A program made the position numbers and the translations under genes. Below the pieces are notes generated by a model. The model searched no databases, was not told the DNA's origin, and was given only the letters and a program-made list of their open reading frames with translations. Below are positions 4,847 to 10,729 of a stretch of DNA of 18,545 bases, one piece after another. The stretch is from positions 1-18,545 of the forward strand of contig JAGGSF010000042.1 of assembly GCA_021159235.1 (NCBI GenBank). The letters are read 5' to 3'. This DNA comes from Deltaproteobacteria bacterium. Lineage in GTDB: Bacteria; Campylobacterota_A; Desulfurellia; JAGGSF01. Numbering within the stretch: position 1 is the first letter of the stretch; each line of letters opens with the position of its first letter.

Positions 4847-4962
4847 AGTGTGATTACTATTTAAAAATGTCATAAAACCTCCAAAGGAGGTTTTACGGCA
4901 ATTTGTAAAATTGTCACATGATCTTACTAAATAGAAAGGTGTGACACTTGATTTAGTAATGA
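4847..4962. repeat. 116-bp dispersed repeat, copy 2
   Basis: Second copy of the 1701-1816 element, same orientation, 114 of 116 bases identical. Here the terminal repeats pair better: ATTACTA at the left end pairs with TAGTAAT at the right end, whereas copy 1 has TAGCAAT. A 7-bp stem TGTCACA (4912-4918) with TGTGACA (4940-4946) is kept as a G-U pair in copy 1. The copy fills most of the gap between the divergent moxR and trp promoters. Confidence 0.85.
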
Positions 4963-4994
4963 CAGGATTCGAAATCACACGGTGGTAATTTCCC

Positions 4995-5023
4995 TTGACA
5001 ATAAACATAAAAATACATATCCT
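4995..5023 (+). promoter_or_regulatory. trp operon promoter
   Basis: Perfect TTGACA (4995-5000), 17-bp spacer, TATCCT (5018-5023, four of six consensus bases). Transcription should begin near 5030, at or just before the ATG of the Trp-rich leader peptide at 5031. No obvious TrpR-type palindrome was identified. Confidence 0.75.
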
Positions 5024-5030
5024 CATATCC

Positions 5031-5084
5031 ATGAAGATGATATTCAAGGTTTGGTGGTGGGCAGGTTTACCTGTCCGCCAGTAA
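5031..5084 (+). CDS. trpL: trp operon leader peptide (trpL-like), 17 aa with three consecutive Trp
   Basis: The frame from ATG 5031 to TAA 5082-5084 encodes MKMIFKVWWWAGLPVRQ. Codons 8-10 (5052-5060) are TGG-TGG-TGG, a concentration of Trp codons not expected by chance directly between a promoter and trpE. It lies in the right place for ribosome-mediated attenuation: the Trp codons run into hairpin arm 1 and the stop codon sits just after arm 2. The ATG is 7 nt after the -10 box with no Shine-Dalgarno, so translation would be leaderless. A second in-frame ATG at 5037 is an alternative start with the same Trp codons. The role is to sense charged tRNA-Trp; the peptide itself is probably not functional. 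Confidence 0.88.
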   Translation: MKMIFKVWWWAGLPVRQ

Positions 5085-5124
5085 GCTTGAGATAATTTAA
5101 CTCAAGCCGCCTGGCGCAGACAGG
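5056..5124 (+). promoter_or_regulatory. trp attenuator: pause hairpin 1:2 and antiterminator 2:3
   Basis: Arm 1 (5056-5065, GGTGGGCAGG, overlapping the Trp codons) pairs with arm 2 (5070-5079, CCTGTCCGCC). Arm 2 extended to 5081 pairs alternatively with arm 3 (5111-5124): CCTGTC with GACAGG and CGCCAG with CTGGCG, leaving a 2-nt bulge. Between arms 2 and 3 a nested 7-bp hairpin (GCTTGAG 5085-5091 with CTCAAGC 5101-5107) shortens the span. A ribosome stalled on the Trp codons would cover arm 1 and free arm 2 for the antiterminator. A ribosome at the leader stop (5082-5084) would cover arm 2. This is the classical attenuation logic, inferred from base pairing. Confidence 0.85.
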
Positions 5125-5154
5125 AGAAGGATGTCTGAGCCGGCGGCTATTTTT
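5105..5154 (+). terminator. trp attenuator terminator (3:4 hairpin)
   Basis: AGCCGCC (5105-5111), GGC (5113-5115) and CAGACA (5117-5122) pair with TGTCTG (5132-5137), GCC (5139-5141) and GGCGGCT (5142-5148), with one bulged T and one mismatch and a 9-nt loop. It is followed by ATTTTTG. Its left arm is the same sequence used by the antiterminator, so the two are mutually exclusive. Confidence 0.88.
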
Positions 5155-5159
5155 GTATG

Positions 5160-5196
5160 GGCTTGACGGCTCGGATGGGTCGTCAAGCCTTTTTTT
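5160..5196 (+). terminator. Second, tandem Rho-independent terminator before trpE
   Basis: A perfect 9-bp stem (GGCTTGACG 5160-5168 with CGTCAAGCC 5181-5189, 12-nt loop) is followed by seven T residues. It lies 6 bases past the first terminator's T-run and 4 bases before the trpE ribosome-binding site. GAGCCG in arm 4 (5137-5142) could pair with CGGCTC (5167-5172) at the loop edge of this hairpin, offering a possible link between the two; this is inference. Confidence 0.88.
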
Positions 5197-5209
5197 GTTT
5201 GGAGACTTT

Positions 5210-6622
5210 ATGTTGAATATGTCCGAAGGTGAATTTCTGGAATACATAAAAAAAATTGACATTGTCCCCCTGTATGCAGATTCTTCCTGTGATACGGATA
5301 CACCCATATCCATCTATTTAAAACTCAAAGATTATGGAGCCTGCTACCTCTTAGAGAGTGTAGAGAAAAGCAAAAGATGGGGCAGATATTCGTTTATAGG
5401 ATTTGACAGATTGGAGACATTCTCCTTTAGCATTGGCGAAGATGAGAAGCCTTTGTCTTTGCTTAAAGATAGACACTTTTCCAAAAAAACACTTAAACTG
5501 AAGGAATTACCCCGCTTTTCTGGGGGTGGTGTGGGGTATATAGGATACGATTGTGCTTCTCTATGGAATAAGGTTGCCCTACCCTCTAAGGACATCTACC
5601 TCCTGCCAGACATCTGTCTTCTATTTACAAAGGTAGTTATCATATTTGATGATTTTCGTAAGACATTTCGCATAGTTTACAATGCAATGCAACCTCAAGA
5701 CTACAAAAAAGCAGAACAGATGATAGGTAAAATTCTCTCTCTCATCCGCCGCCCATTCTTTTACAACCAAAGAAAAGGTAAATCTTCTCCTGTATCCATT
5801 TTACACAGAGAAGCGTTTGAAGAGATGGTAAGAAAAGCAAAGAGGTGTATAGGAGATGGCGAGATAATACAGGCCGTTTTAGCACATCACATCGTATATT
5901 CAACAGATGTGCCCCCCTTTGACATCTACCGGGCTTTAAGGAGGAGTAATCCCTCTCCCTATATGTTTTACATTGATTTTGATTCTTTTAAACTCATCGG
6001 TTCATCCCCTGAAGTTTTAGTGAGATTGGAAGGAGAAACCATTGAAACCTCGCCTATTGCAGGCACCCGTCGCAGAGGCAAAACAAAAAAAGAAGATGAA
6101 AAACTGGAAGAAGAACTCCTTCAGGATGAGAAAGAAAAAGCCGAGCACCTGATGCTTGTTGACCTGGCAAGAAATGATGTGGGAAGAGTAGCGAAAACAG
6201 GAACTGTAAGGGTAGAGAATTTCATGCATGTAGAGAAATTTTCAAAGGTTATGCACATCGTTTCCGATATTAAGGCAAAAATAGAAGAAGATAAAGATAT
6301 GTTTGATGTGTTTAGATCCTGTTTCCCTGCAGGAACGGTGTCCGGTGCACCAAAGGTGAGGGCAATGCAAATAATTGCAAGCTTAGAAAAGGTAAGAAGA
6401 GGCCCTTACGCCGGCAGTGTGGGTTACTTTGGATACGATGGAAATATGGATATGTGCATCACCATACGCACCATTGTATGGAAAGAAAATAAAGCATTTG
6501 TGGGTGTGGGTGCAGGCATCGTTTATGATTCCCTCCCCCGGAGGGAATATGAAGAAACAATGGAAAAGGCATCTGCCTGCATCAATGCGTTAAGAGGTGA
6601 AAATGATATTGGTGATAGATAA
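5210..6622 (+). CDS. trpE: Anthranilate synthase component I
   Basis: Chorismate-binding subunit (470 aa) that with TrpG makes anthranilate from chorismate and glutamine, the first committed step to tryptophan. The N-terminal domain has LLES (47-50) followed by WGRYSFIG (57-64), the region that binds Trp for feedback inhibition. The C-terminal chorismate-binding domain shows SPEVLVRLEG, PIAGTRRRG, LVDLARNDVGRV, FPAGTVSGAPKVRAM and GAGIVYDS. PIAGT is typical of anthranilate rather than aminodeoxychorismate synthases. I chose ATG 5210 because GGAG (5201-5204) is correctly spaced. A start at 5153 would lie inside the attenuator terminators. Its expression depends on read-through of both terminators. 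The 3' end overlaps trpG by 20 bp. Confidence 0.97.
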   Translation: MLNMSEGEFLEYIKKIDIVPLYADSSCDTDTPISIYLKLKDYGACYLLESVEKSKRWGRYSFIGFDRLETFSFSIGEDEKPLSLLKDRHFSKKTLKLKELPRFSGGGVGYIGYDCASLWNKVALPSKDIYLLPDICLLFTKVVIIFDDFRKTFRIVYNAMQPQDYKKAEQMIGKILSLIRRPFFYNQRKGKSSPVSILHREAFEEMVRKAKRCIGDGEIIQAVLAHHIVYSTDVPPFDIYRALRRSNPSPYMFYIDFDSFKLIGSSPEVLVRLEGETIETSPIAGTRRRGKTKKEDEKLEEELLQDEKEKAEHLMLVDLARNDVGRVAKTGTVRVENFMHVEKFSKVMHIVSDIKAKIEEDKDMFDVFRSCFPAGTVSGAPKVRAMQIIASLEKVRRGPYAGSVGYFGYDGNMDMCITIRTIVWKENKAFVGVGAGIVYDSLPRREYEETMEKASACINALRGENDIGDR

Positions 6623-7169
6623 TTATGATTCTTTTACCTACAACCTGGTTCATCTTTTAAGAGAAATGAGGAGAGATGTAAATGTCATCCCCAACGATGA
6701 AAAGGATTACATTCGGTGGGTAGAAAAAAGTAAAGCTGTATTCATCTCTCCCGGTCCCTCTACTCCTGAAAATGCAGGAATAAGTATGGATGTAGTGAGG
6801 AGGTTTTACAAGACAAAACCTATATTCGGGGTGTGTCTGGGTCACCAGGTAATTGCCTATAACTTTGGAGGAAAGATTGCGAGAGCAAGAAAAATCATGC
6901 ATGGAAAAACATCTCTTATCTATCATTCAGATAAATGCATTTTTAAAAATATACCCTCTCCCTTTGTTGCTGTCAGATATCACTCCCTTTCTGTAAGCAA
7001 AGAGAATTTTCCCTTGGAGCTGGAGATTTTGGCCAGAAGTGGAGATGAAGAGATCATGTCTATCAGACATAAGAATTTTCCCCTGTATGGAGTTCAGTTT
7101 CATCCGGAGTCCATCCTTACAGAGTATGGTGAAACGTTAATCTATAATTTTTTAGAGGAGGTAAGATAA
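6603..7169 (+). CDS. trpG: Anthranilate synthase component II, glutamine amidotransferase
   Basis: A 188-aa class I glutamine amidotransferase that supplies ammonia to TrpE. It begins with the family signature NYDSFTYNLVHLL. ISPGPSTPENAG and GVCLGHQ follow, the latter with nucleophile Cys78. His167 and Glu169 in VQFHPES complete the catalytic triad. I chose ATG 6603, preceded by AGAGGTG; an in-frame GTG at 6597 is possible but has no ribosome-binding site. The gene starts inside the end of trpE, so translation is probably coupled. In some bacteria such a subunit also serves PabB; no pabB is seen here. Confidence 0.96.
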   Translation: MILVIDNYDSFTYNLVHLLREMRRDVNVIPNDEKDYIRWVEKSKAVFISPGPSTPENAGISMDVVRRFYKTKPIFGVCLGHQVIAYNFGGKIARARKIMHGKTSLIYHSDKCIFKNIPSPFVAVRYHSLSVSKENFPLELEILARSGDEEIMSIRHKNFPLYGVQFHPESILTEYGETLIYNFLEEVR

Positions 7170-8176
7170 TGCTGAGTAAACTGGTGCAGGGAGAAAATAT
7201 AAAAAAGGAGGAGATAAAATCGTTTCTGAAAGACTACCTTGAGGAGAGGAAAACAGAGGCAGAAATGGCCTCTTTCCTTACAGCTTTGCGAATGCGAGGG
7301 GAAACGGCAGAAGAGATTGCAGCCTGCATAGAGATAATGGACGAGGTGGCTATACATCTAAGTTTAGACGATGAGATAAGGGAAAACACCATAGATACCT
7401 GCGGCACGGGTGGCGATGAAAAGGGAACATTTAACATTTCTACAGCCTGTGCCTTTATAGTAGCAGGAGCCGGTGTGTATGTGGCAAAACACGGAAACAG
7501 AGCAGTATCCAGCAGATGCGGCAGTGCGGATGTGCTTGAGGCCTCAGGTATAAACATAAACATAGAAAAGAAGAAGGCAGAAAAAATACTGAAACAGGCA
7601 GGCATAGTGTTCCTATTTGCTCCCTTATTTCATCCTGCCATGAAGAAGATTGCCAGGGTAAGAAAAGCACTGGGTTTTCGCACCTTATTCAATATTATCG
7701 GACCTTTGCTCAATCCTGCAGGTGTAAAAAAACAGCTTATCGGCGTACCCTCTCAAGCAATGATGGATACCCTATCGGCTGTAATCAAACTCCTGGGGAA
7801 TAGAAGGATAATGTTAGTAAACAGTATGGATGGCCTGGATGAGGTGAGTGTATGTGCAGATACATATATTTCCGATGTAAATGGTATGTTTATAAAGAAG
7901 TATACCATCTCTCCCGAGGATTTTGGTATAAAGAGATACAGTTCAGATGCCTTAAGAGGTGGAGATGTAGAAGAAAACAGGTCTATTATGATGGATATTT
8001 TAAATAACAAAGACGGTGCATATAGAGATGCAGCTTTAATAAATGCGAGCGCTGCACTCATTGCAGCAGGAAGGGCAAAAGATCTAAAGGAGGGATACAA
8101 AATGGCAGAATTTTCCCTTGCAAGCGGTAAAGCAAAGCAAAAGTTTGAACTATTGAGGAAATTGAGCAATGACTAA
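7169..8176 (+). CDS. trpD: Anthranilate phosphoribosyltransferase
   Basis: 335 residues, normal family length. It transfers phosphoribose from PRPP to anthranilate, the second pathway step. Key motifs are the PRPP-binding DTCGTGGD (76-83), KHGNRAVSSRCGSADVLE (107-124), and HPAMKKIARVRKALGFRT with FNIIGPLLNPAG further on. It is a stand-alone enzyme with no amidotransferase fusion. GAGG lies upstream, and the ATG shares one base with the trpG stop (TAATG), so translation is coupled. Its other end overlaps trpF by 8 bp. Confidence 0.97.
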   Translation: MLSKLVQGENIKKEEIKSFLKDYLEERKTEAEMASFLTALRMRGETAEEIAACIEIMDEVAIHLSLDDEIRENTIDTCGTGGDEKGTFNISTACAFIVAGAGVYVAKHGNRAVSSRCGSADVLEASGININIEKKKAEKILKQAGIVFLFAPLFHPAMKKIARVRKALGFRTLFNIIGPLLNPAGVKKQLIGVPSQAMMDTLSAVIKLLGNRRIMLVNSMDGLDEVSVCADTYISDVNGMFIKKYTISPEDFGIKRYSSDALRGGDVEENRSIMMDILNNKDGAYRDAALINASAALIAAGRAKDLKEGYKMAEFSLASGKAKQKFELLRKLSND

Positions 8177-8786
8177 GATAAAAATATGCGGTATTACGAA
8201 TATAGAAGATGCAATGTTCTGTAGTCTTTCAGGAGTAGATGCATTGGGTTTTATCTTTTATGAAAAAAGTCCCCGCTATATAGATGCCGGCAAGGCTAAG
8301 GAAATCTGTTCCAGGTTACCTCCCTTTGTTACCAAAGTAGGGGTATTTGTAAATGAAGATGAAAAAAGATTAAGAGATATTTTCTATTTTTCAGGATTAA
8401 ATGTCGTTCAGCTACATGGTGGAGAATCTGTGAATTATGTGTATAATTTAAAAGCATTGTTGCCAGGTGTGCATATAATAAAGTTTGTAAGAAACATGAA
8501 TGAAGCAGAACTATTTGCCACTGTAGTGAATTCGTTTATTGTAGACAGCGGTGGAGGCACGGGAAAGGTTTGTGACTGGAAATTTGCCAGAAACCTGAGA
8601 GAAAAAATCTCTCTTCCTCTTATATTAGCCGGCGGATTGGACGAAAGGAATGTAAGAAAAGCCATAGAAACAGTCCGTCCTTATGCGGTGGATGCCTGCA
8701 GCAAACTGGAGAAGGAAAAGGGTAAGAAAGACAATGGAAAATTGGAAGAGTTTATCAGGGAGGTAAGAAACAGTGAAATTGCCTGA
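8169..8786 (+). CDS. trpF: Phosphoribosylanthranilate isomerase
   Basis: A 205-aa (beta/alpha)8 enzyme that converts phosphoribosylanthranilate to CdRP, the third step. It begins with KICGIT (5-10, catalytic Cys7). [25 protein letters not shown] and the catalytic Asp126 in IVDSGGGTG follow, then LAGGLDERN. The usual VDVSSGVE phosphate-binding end reads VDACSKLE, a mild variation. The start lies within the end of trpD (ATGACTAA overlap). In most operons trpC lies between trpD and trpF; here there is no room for it, and this protein is not a TrpC-TrpF fusion. Confidence 0.94.
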
Positions 8787-9978
8787 TGAAAAAGGATATT
8801 TTGGTCCATATGGAGGGAGGTTTATACCAGAAACGCTTGTTTCCATATTGGATGAGTTAAAACAGAAGTATTTTAACATCATCAACAGGAATGATTTTCA
8901 AAAAAAACTCAATCACTATTTAAGAACATACTGTGGAAGACCTACCCCTCTGTATTTGGCGGAGAATGTGAGTAGAGATCTGGGGTTTAAGGTCTATTTG
9001 AAGAGAGAAGACCTAAATCATACCGGTGCTCATAAGATGAATAACACACTGGGACAGGTGCTTCTGGCAAAATTCATGGGTAAGAAGAGGGTTATTGCAG
9101 AAACAGGTGCAGGGCAGCATGGAGTGGCCACAGCCACAGCCTGTGCATTACTCAATATTCCCTGCAAGATATACATGGGAAAGATAGACTGTGTCAGACA
9201 AGAGTTAAATGTGTTCAGGATGAAACTGCTGGGAGCGGAGGTAGAGGTTGTGGAAAGCGGTTCGCAAACCCTAAAAGATGCAATAAATGAAACAATAAGG
9301 GATTGGGTAACAAATGCCAGTGATACATACTATTGCCTGGGTTCGTGTGTAGGACCAGACCCCTACCCTGAAATGGTGAGAAATTTTCAAGTTATAATCG
9401 GCAAGGAGACAAAGGAGGAAATATTAAAAGTAGAAGGTAGGCTGCCCGATATGTGTGTAGCGTGTGTAGGGGGAGGCAGCAACGCCATTGGATTGTTCTA
9501 CCCATTCTTAGAGGATAAAGTAAAACTGGTTGGAGTAGAAGCAGGAGGAAAGGGTAAAAAATTGGGTGAAAATGCCGCTACTATTTCCCTGGGTCAAGCA
9601 GGTATACTTCATGGAGCAAAAACATATATTCTTCAAGACAAATACGGTCAGATTATTCCCACCCATTCTGTGAGTGCAGGCCTGGATTACCCTGGAGTAG
9701 GACCGGAGCATGTATTTTTAAAAGAATCGGGCCGCGCTCAATATGAGGTAGCTACAGACAGAGAAGCGCTGGAGGCATTTGAATACTTGAGCAAGACAGA
9801 AGGCATAATTCCCGCCCTGGAGAGTGCACACGCCATTGCCTATGTAAGAAAATTAAAGGGAAAGTTGAACAAGGATAAAATTGTAGTGATAAATCTTTCT
9901 GGCAGAGGGGATAAAGATATGGGAATAGTGCGGGATTTGCTCGAGGCTAAAAATGGACAGGATAAGAGAAAAAATTGA
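8773..9978 (+). CDS. trpB: Tryptophan synthase beta chain (TrpB1 type)
   Basis: A 401-aa PLP enzyme that joins indole to serine to make tryptophan, working in a complex with Trp[10 protein letters not shown] carries the PLP-binding Lys88, [13 protein letters not shown] the catalytic Glu110, GGGSNAIG binds the PLP phosphate, and ESAHAIAY and [10 protein letters not shown] are near the C-terminus. The start is a GTG at 8773, since no ATG lies before the conserved YFGPYGG; GGGAGG lies 9-10 nt upstream. It overlaps trpF by 14 bp and trpA by 26 bp, the tightest spacing in the operon. Length and motifs are normal. Confidence 0.97.
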
Positions 9979-10729
9979 AGAGGCGAACAAAAATAAGGGT
10001 GGTGCACTCATCATATATATAACCTGCGGTTTTCCTTATAAAGATAGCACAGTTGATATTGTTAAGGGTTTAGTAGAAGGAGGAGCGGATGTCGTAGAAC
10101 TGGGTATACCTTTTTCTGATCCCATAGCCGATGGAAGGATAATTCAAGAAGCATCTCAGAAAGCACTGCAACAGAAGGTAAACACGGATGATTGCTTTTC
10201 AACGGTTAAGAAAATAAGAGAAAATAAAATAGATATACCTATTTTATTTATGGGTTACTACAATACGATTTTTACCTATGGAGAGAAAAGATTTGTAGAA
10301 AGAGCAAAACAGGTAGGACTGGATGGGTTTATTGTACCCGATCTTCCATTGGAAGAATCAAAGAGAATACTCAATTTACTGAAGAATTCTTCTTTAAGCA
10401 TGCCGTTTTTAATAACACCAACCACCACGGAAGACAGGATAAAAAAGATTGTCTCTCTATCCTCTGGTTTTATTTATCTTGTGCCGCGCCTGGGAATAAC
10501 AGGTGAAAAGACAGAGGATTTATCCTTAGCCCGCTCTTTAGTTCAGAAGATAAAAAAATATACCTCTTTACCCATTTGCATAGGATTTGGGATAGAGAAT
10601 AAAAAAGATGTAGATCAGATATTTTCTTTCTGCGAAGGGGCAATCATCGGCAGTAAGTTCATACAATTTATAGAAAAAAATCCCTCCTCTGAAAATGCTC
10701 GCTTGTTTGTAGAGAAATTACTATCTTAA
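9953..10729 (+). CDS. trpA: Tryptophan synthase alpha chain
   Basis: 258 residues. It cleaves indole-3-glycerol phosphate and passes indole to TrpB through the complex. The catalytic Glu49 ([13 protein letters not shown]) and Asp60 (IADG) fall at the same numbers as in the enteric enzymes. [24 protein letters not shown] and GFGIENKKD are further family motifs. The loop usually VTGAR reads ITGEK. ATG 9953 has GAGG 6 nt upstream inside trpB, so the two are translationally coupled. It is the last gene of the operon, followed by a hairpin. It uses indole-3-glycerol phosphate, made by TrpC, which is not encoded in this window. Confidence 0.96.

Follow-up and report, generated by a model that had tools for sequence, protein, structure and literature searches.

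How can a leader that senses tryptophan through a single leader peptide open two terminators in succession? The question is raised by positions 5031-5196 of the window, the whole stretch of 18,545 nucleotides analysed here, where two predicted terminators stand in tandem between a trp leader peptide and trpE. Textbook attenuation uses one terminator per leader. An earlier note on this DNA had pointed out that the first attenuator alone would leave the second terminator closed, and this puzzle proved to be a real one.

A trp leader with two predicted terminators

The leader lies between a predicted promoter and the trp genes, and its elements (arms 1 to 6, terminators T1 and T2) are arranged as follows.

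4995-5023, + strand: predicted sigma-70-type promoter, TTGACA-17-TATCCT, 10/12 matches
5031-5084, + strand: leader peptide ORF, MKMIFKVWWWAGLPVRQ and stop, 17 sense codons, Trp codons at 5052-5060
5055-5080, + strand: helix 1:2, pause or anti-antiterminator, 5055-5065 with 5070-5080, -19.9 kcal/mol
5070-5124, + strand: helix 2:3, first antiterminator, 5070-5081 with 5111-5116 and 5119-5124, -28.3 kcal/mol
5105-5154, + strand: T1, first predicted terminator (helix 3:4), 5105-5122 with 5132-5148, -28.5 kcal/mol, T run 5150-5154
5131-5166, + strand: possible second small ORF, MSEPAAIFVWA and stop, one Trp codon at 5158-5160, stop within arm 5
5133-5176, + strand: helix 4:5, proposed second antiterminator, GUCUGAGCCG (5133-5142) with CGGCUCGGAU (5167-5176), 10 bp
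5159-5196, + strand: T2, second predicted terminator (helix 5:6), 5159-5172 with 5177-5190, -23.9 kcal/mol, T run 5190-5196
5201-5204, + strand: GGAG, Shine-Dalgarno sequence of trpE
5210-10729, + strand: trpE-trpG-trpD-trpF-trpB-trpA, directly 3' of the leader

The leader ORF reads ATG AAG ATG ATA TTC AAG GTT TGG TGG TGG GCA GGT TTA CCT GTC CGC CAG TAA, which bears out the 17-codon frame with three consecutive Trp codons described in the earlier note. The note's other basic observations held as well: the leader stop (5082-5084) comes right after arm 2, which ends at 5080, a T run follows each of the two hairpins (the T1 tail being AUUUUUG), and by sequence and folding the arms offer the mutually exclusive helices 1:2, 2:3 and 3:4, the last of which is a predicted intrinsic terminator. 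A small hairpin (5085-5091:5101-5107) is enclosed in the loop of helix 2:3. The 180-nt leader folded with an energy of -86.1, against -52.9 +/- 3.9 in shuffles (z = -8.5). The second terminator does precede the trpE ribosome site as claimed, but its stem is not a perfect 9-bp helix; it has 14 pairs, of which the 9 at the base are perfect, and the spacing of 6 nt after T1 is corrected to a T1 T run ending at 5154 and a T2 stem beginning at 5159. Taken separately, bases 5102-5108 are complementary to 5160-5166 (7 bases, by inspection), a potential pseudoknot inside the 2:3 loop.

Other readings of the T2 region were considered and set aside. That T2 encodes an N-terminal extension of TrpE starting at TTG 5153 was rejected because two other members of the genus (G001 and G002) are one T shorter there, which breaks the frame; a short ORF from ATG 5157 across T2 had no conserved reading frame; T2 as a minus-strand terminator lacked a T run on that strand; and as a repeated genomic element it found only itself in the 1.13-Mb genome. 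The viral contigs searched held no relatives.

In the two other genus members the leaders are 90% identical to that of the window from the -35 box onward. They keep the WWW motif, the leader stop and T1 and T2 with their T runs, and the peptide reads MKMIFKVWWWAVKPAR followed by Q or R and the stop; the Trp codons, all arms and both terminators are retained in 3/3 genus members. Changes in G001 and G002 are only pairing-compatible, with 98% of the counted cells paired in each of two alternative states, and all 10 pairs of helix 4:5 are retained across the 3 genomes; no pair is altered on both sides, because the three genomes are close. The folding energies and this conservation agree with the mutually exclusive arms, and together with the sequence they support the enteric logic that the earlier note had invoked. 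Judged by its leader ORF and helix logic, the feature at 5031-5196 is a predicted ribosome-mediated trp attenuator.

No Rfam family reached threshold in the window, and the gathering score of RF00513 (Trp_leader) was not attained. The best sub-threshold matches, both on the T1 part, were BcKCsr2 and RcsR1, the latter of which we take to be the Sinorhizobium meliloti trpL (rnTrpL) RNA.

The downstream operon was called by protein models (trpE TIGR00564, trpG TIGR00566, trpD TIGR01245, trpF PRAI models, trpB TIGR00263, trpA TIGR00262). The nearest named record for the window TrpE, at 90% identity, is a Desulfurellaceae MAG (L031), and NCBI taxonomy places this family in Campylobacterota, class Desulfurellia. 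trpC is absent from the window operon and sits on a separate contig in the genus (G000:C17:1647-2330); in G009, a complete relative, it lies close downstream of trpE.

The predicted promoter is kept in G001 and G002, whereas the DNA 5' of it is unrelated between genus members. Its predicted +1 falls at about 5030-5031, that is, at the leader ATG, and the mRNA of the leader peptide is therefore probably leaderless. Many other class members in which a good promoter was found have the leader ATG no more than about 5 nt from the predicted +1, and leaderless trp leader peptides are also predicted for the relatives L013, L024, L027, L030, L111, L217 and L223.

Several short inverted repeats were seen just 5' of the -35 box (window 4864-4980, L003:1160-1290, L002:3122-3171). 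In G001 and G002 the palindromes CAAGGAAA...TTTCCTTG adjoin the -35 box and may be an operator or a small repeat family, and in the window a terminator-like hairpin, AAAACCTCC-AAA-GGAGGTTTT (4871-4897), separates the trp promoter from a divergent ATPase gene. Riboswitches for the molybdenum/tungsten cofactor and for fluoride were noted near the trp loci of class relatives, at L024:3307-3427 and L111:376-439.

Tandem terminators in Desulfurellia and other phyla

The earlier note had regarded T2 as unusual; it is not peculiar to the window, since T1 followed by T2 was found in 18/19 Desulfurellia trp leaders examined. All 18 of the WWW-leader trpE loci read in this class have T1, then T2, then the trpE ribosome site, the distance being about 20-31 nt from the leader stop to T1 and 6-15 nt from T1 to T2. 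The 19th leader (L010, in G007) has WW in place of WWW; its first hairpin lacks a T run, one strong terminator comes after it, and the form may be degenerate or intermediate.

The layout extends further. In the G047 phylum, to which a Candidatus Desulfofervidaceae locus belongs (L198, a match to the named record L032), tandem terminators follow WW or WWW leaders in 15 of about 26 cases, one of which (L194) was read by eye; in the phylum of G045 both terminators follow 4/5 WWW leaders; and G055 provides a further case. The sequences GCCGTGG and CCACGGC are common to the stems of many tandem leaders, as if arms 3 and 5 repeated the Trp-codon sequence of arm 1. An Rfam search of the leaders of 13 relatives gave no family within the leaders, with matches elsewhere. 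The tandem layout of trp terminators was absent from the openly accessible literature searched and seems to be undescribed so far.

Proposed coupling of the second terminator to the sensor

We think it likely that the two terminators would act in cascade under one sensor, with helix 4:5 as the coupling. According to the model, the leader would alternate between an off state (1:2/3:4/5:6) and an on state (2:3/4:5). When tryptophan is plentiful, the ribosome would pass WWW and halt at the leader stop covering arm 2, allowing arm 3 to pair with arm 4 as T1. With T1 formed, arm 5 would be free for arm 6, and polymerases escaping T1 would meet a second terminator. When tryptophan is scarce, a ribosome stalled on WWW over arm 1 would permit helix 2:3 and leave arm 4 single-stranded; free arm 4 would then capture arm 5 together with the T2 loop while arm 6 has yet to be transcribed, delaying T2 beyond its decision point so that trpE is transcribed. 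The benefit would be multiplicative, in that readthrough of T1 in rich medium would be stopped again at T2 while both would open together in starvation. Termination at each site, its dependence on tryptophan and a sufficient kinetic hold of 4:5 are what we infer from this model. The folds further predict that, in the 4:5 state, arm 6 of T2 and the Shine-Dalgarno region of trpE pair with each other (5177-5209), with a possible translational effect.

Folding of the window leader with a ribosome placed at the first Trp codon, and with T2 still short of its last nucleotides, gave 2:3 plus 4:5 as the minimum-energy structure, whereas a ribosome at the leader stop gave T1 plus a growing T2. The earlier note had suggested that free arm 4 pairs with the 5' arm of T2. 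Comparison supports this pairing, but the helix is 10 bp rather than 6 and extends into the loop of T2. With T2 still 4 nt short of its end, the probability of helix 5:6 was 0.67 when arm 4 was locked and 0.00 when it was free (0.66 and 0.17 in the sisters), and a predicted switch of this kind was seen in 23/31 loci. Complete T2 in the window behaves differently: the probability of 5:6 is 0.98 even with arm 4 free, and because the finished terminator outcompetes 4:5 at equilibrium, the second switch would have to be kinetic. For the sisters, T1 persists in the equilibrium fold and the 2:3 state is not reached even with arm 1 masked, so there too the order of transcription must decide.

The dominance of complete T2 at equilibrium would also be expected if T2 were a constitutive, leaky back-up terminator, uncoupled from the sensor and only lowering basal expression, with the likeness of T1 and T2 arising from duplication. 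We regard this explanation as unlikely, and the switching of the folds in most loci speaks against it. So does the position of T2: if this strong stop, which ends 14 nt before trpE in all members of the class, were unregulated, it would limit derepression.

Should one sensor govern both terminators, arm 4, once released, is expected to pair with arm 5. Among 29 representative leaders, the arm-4/arm-5 duplex averaged -16.3 kcal/mol within a genome and -11.5 kcal/mol between genomes, a difference with a permutation p of 2e-5 overall (the permutation floor), 6e-5 in Desulfurellia and 2e-5 in the other phyla. The matching of T1 and T2 thus appears to be maintained within genomes against drift, across the class and in other phyla, which argues against an uncoupled T2. 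Complementarity of arms 4 and 5 also exceeded that of shuffles (Fisher 2e-22 over 29 loci, which are related and hence non-independent). The hairpin finder and the stem-arm rules behind these comparisons were purpose-written and tuned on these same data. A terminator control was run on 800 kb of the complete relative G009: only 5 same-strand terminator pairs lie no more than 40 nt apart, the best 4:5 among them being -5.1 kcal/mol, and the G009 trp leader has a 4:5 of -21.5 kcal/mol, its arm 4 being matched equally by 1/408 terminator 5' arms.

Using strict stem arms, in which arm 5 stops short of the T2 loop, the window 4:5 lies within chance (p = 0.18; sisters 0.47-0.51), as an uncoupled back-up would predict; with the T2 loop included, an extended arm chosen after seeing the fold, p falls to 0.011 (sisters about 0.05). 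Complementarity of arms 3 and 6 is about equal to that of 4 and 5, as duplication would give (p = 0.35 without flanks, 0.016 with flanks). With 4:5 not clearly the stronger of the two, a resemblance between T1 and T2 left by duplication may account for some of the signal.

A quite improbable alternative is that T2 is opened by translation of the second small ORF (5131-5166): helix 2:3 would free arm 4 and expose the start, and a ribosome stalled at the Trp codon would cover arm 5, in the manner of mgtP. The start and a purine-rich, Shine-Dalgarno-like stretch, GGAGAAGG, are located in the T1 loop, the ORF with its Trp codon and its stop inside arm 5 is conserved in 3/3 genus members, and tandem leader ORFs do exist in Salmonella mgtCBR (PMC3641672). 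None of the other tandem leaders scanned showed this geometry, which would thus be particular to the window genus; relatives, however, carry T2 with no such ORF. Moreover, a single coding difference among three close genomes is too few to test coding, and initiation would have to fit the time for transcribing about 65 nt.

That T2 serves independent control by a protein or RNA ligand unrelated to tryptophan is very improbable: a second control layer was among the options of the earlier note and Bacillus clausii metE has tandem riboswitches with two terminators (PMC3641672), but no Rfam family appeared in the window or in the leaders of the 13 relatives, and the T1-T2 gap of 4-5 nt leaves no room for a sensor.

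On balance, we lean towards the view that the six-arm cascade represents a widespread and apparently undescribed class of trp attenuator, present in Desulfurellia and at least two other phyla, in which the release of arm 4 by one stalled ribosome would disable a downstream terminator and multiply the on/off range that one tRNA-Trp sensor provides.

Relation to known attenuators

A single-sensor cascade in trp was absent from the openly accessible literature searched. If the position of one ribosome is indeed relayed through a series of three helix choices, attenuation can be arranged as a cascade, which would sharpen control with no need of a repressor. To judge from the survey, models with a single terminator overlook an architecture that is common outside Enterobacteria.

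The enteric trp attenuator combines adjacent Trp codons with the pairings 1:2, 2:3 and 3:4 (restated in PMC1183508). The window leader shares with E. coli trpL (RF00513) the adjacent Trp codons, these three helices, a stop just after arm 2 and a T run before trpE. It differs in having a second terminator, the 5' arm of which is complementary to arm 4, an extra hairpin in 2:3, a probably leaderless mRNA and no Rfam match.

The trpL mRNA of Sinorhizobium meliloti begins at the trpL ATG and is leaderless (PMC7298713). The window leader, also predicted to be leaderless, resembles it in this respect, and RcsR1 is among its best sub-threshold matches; however, the S. meliloti attenuator is drawn with one terminator, and tandem terminators and a 4:5 pairing are not described there.

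The rimP leader of some Gammaproteobacteria carries two tandem terminators, of which one has a potential antiterminator (PMC2965389), a likeness to the window that ends with the sensor, since rimP is not a leader-peptide system and NusA is its suspected sensor. The leader of Salmonella mgtCBR contains tandem attenuators, mgtM and mgtP, in which two ORFs sense two signals independently (PMC3641672). As proposed for the window, two attenuation steps in one leader are decided there by ribosome position; but whereas no intrinsic terminators were seen in mgtCBR, the window leader has one sensor and two predicted intrinsic terminators, which would be coupled by helix 4:5.
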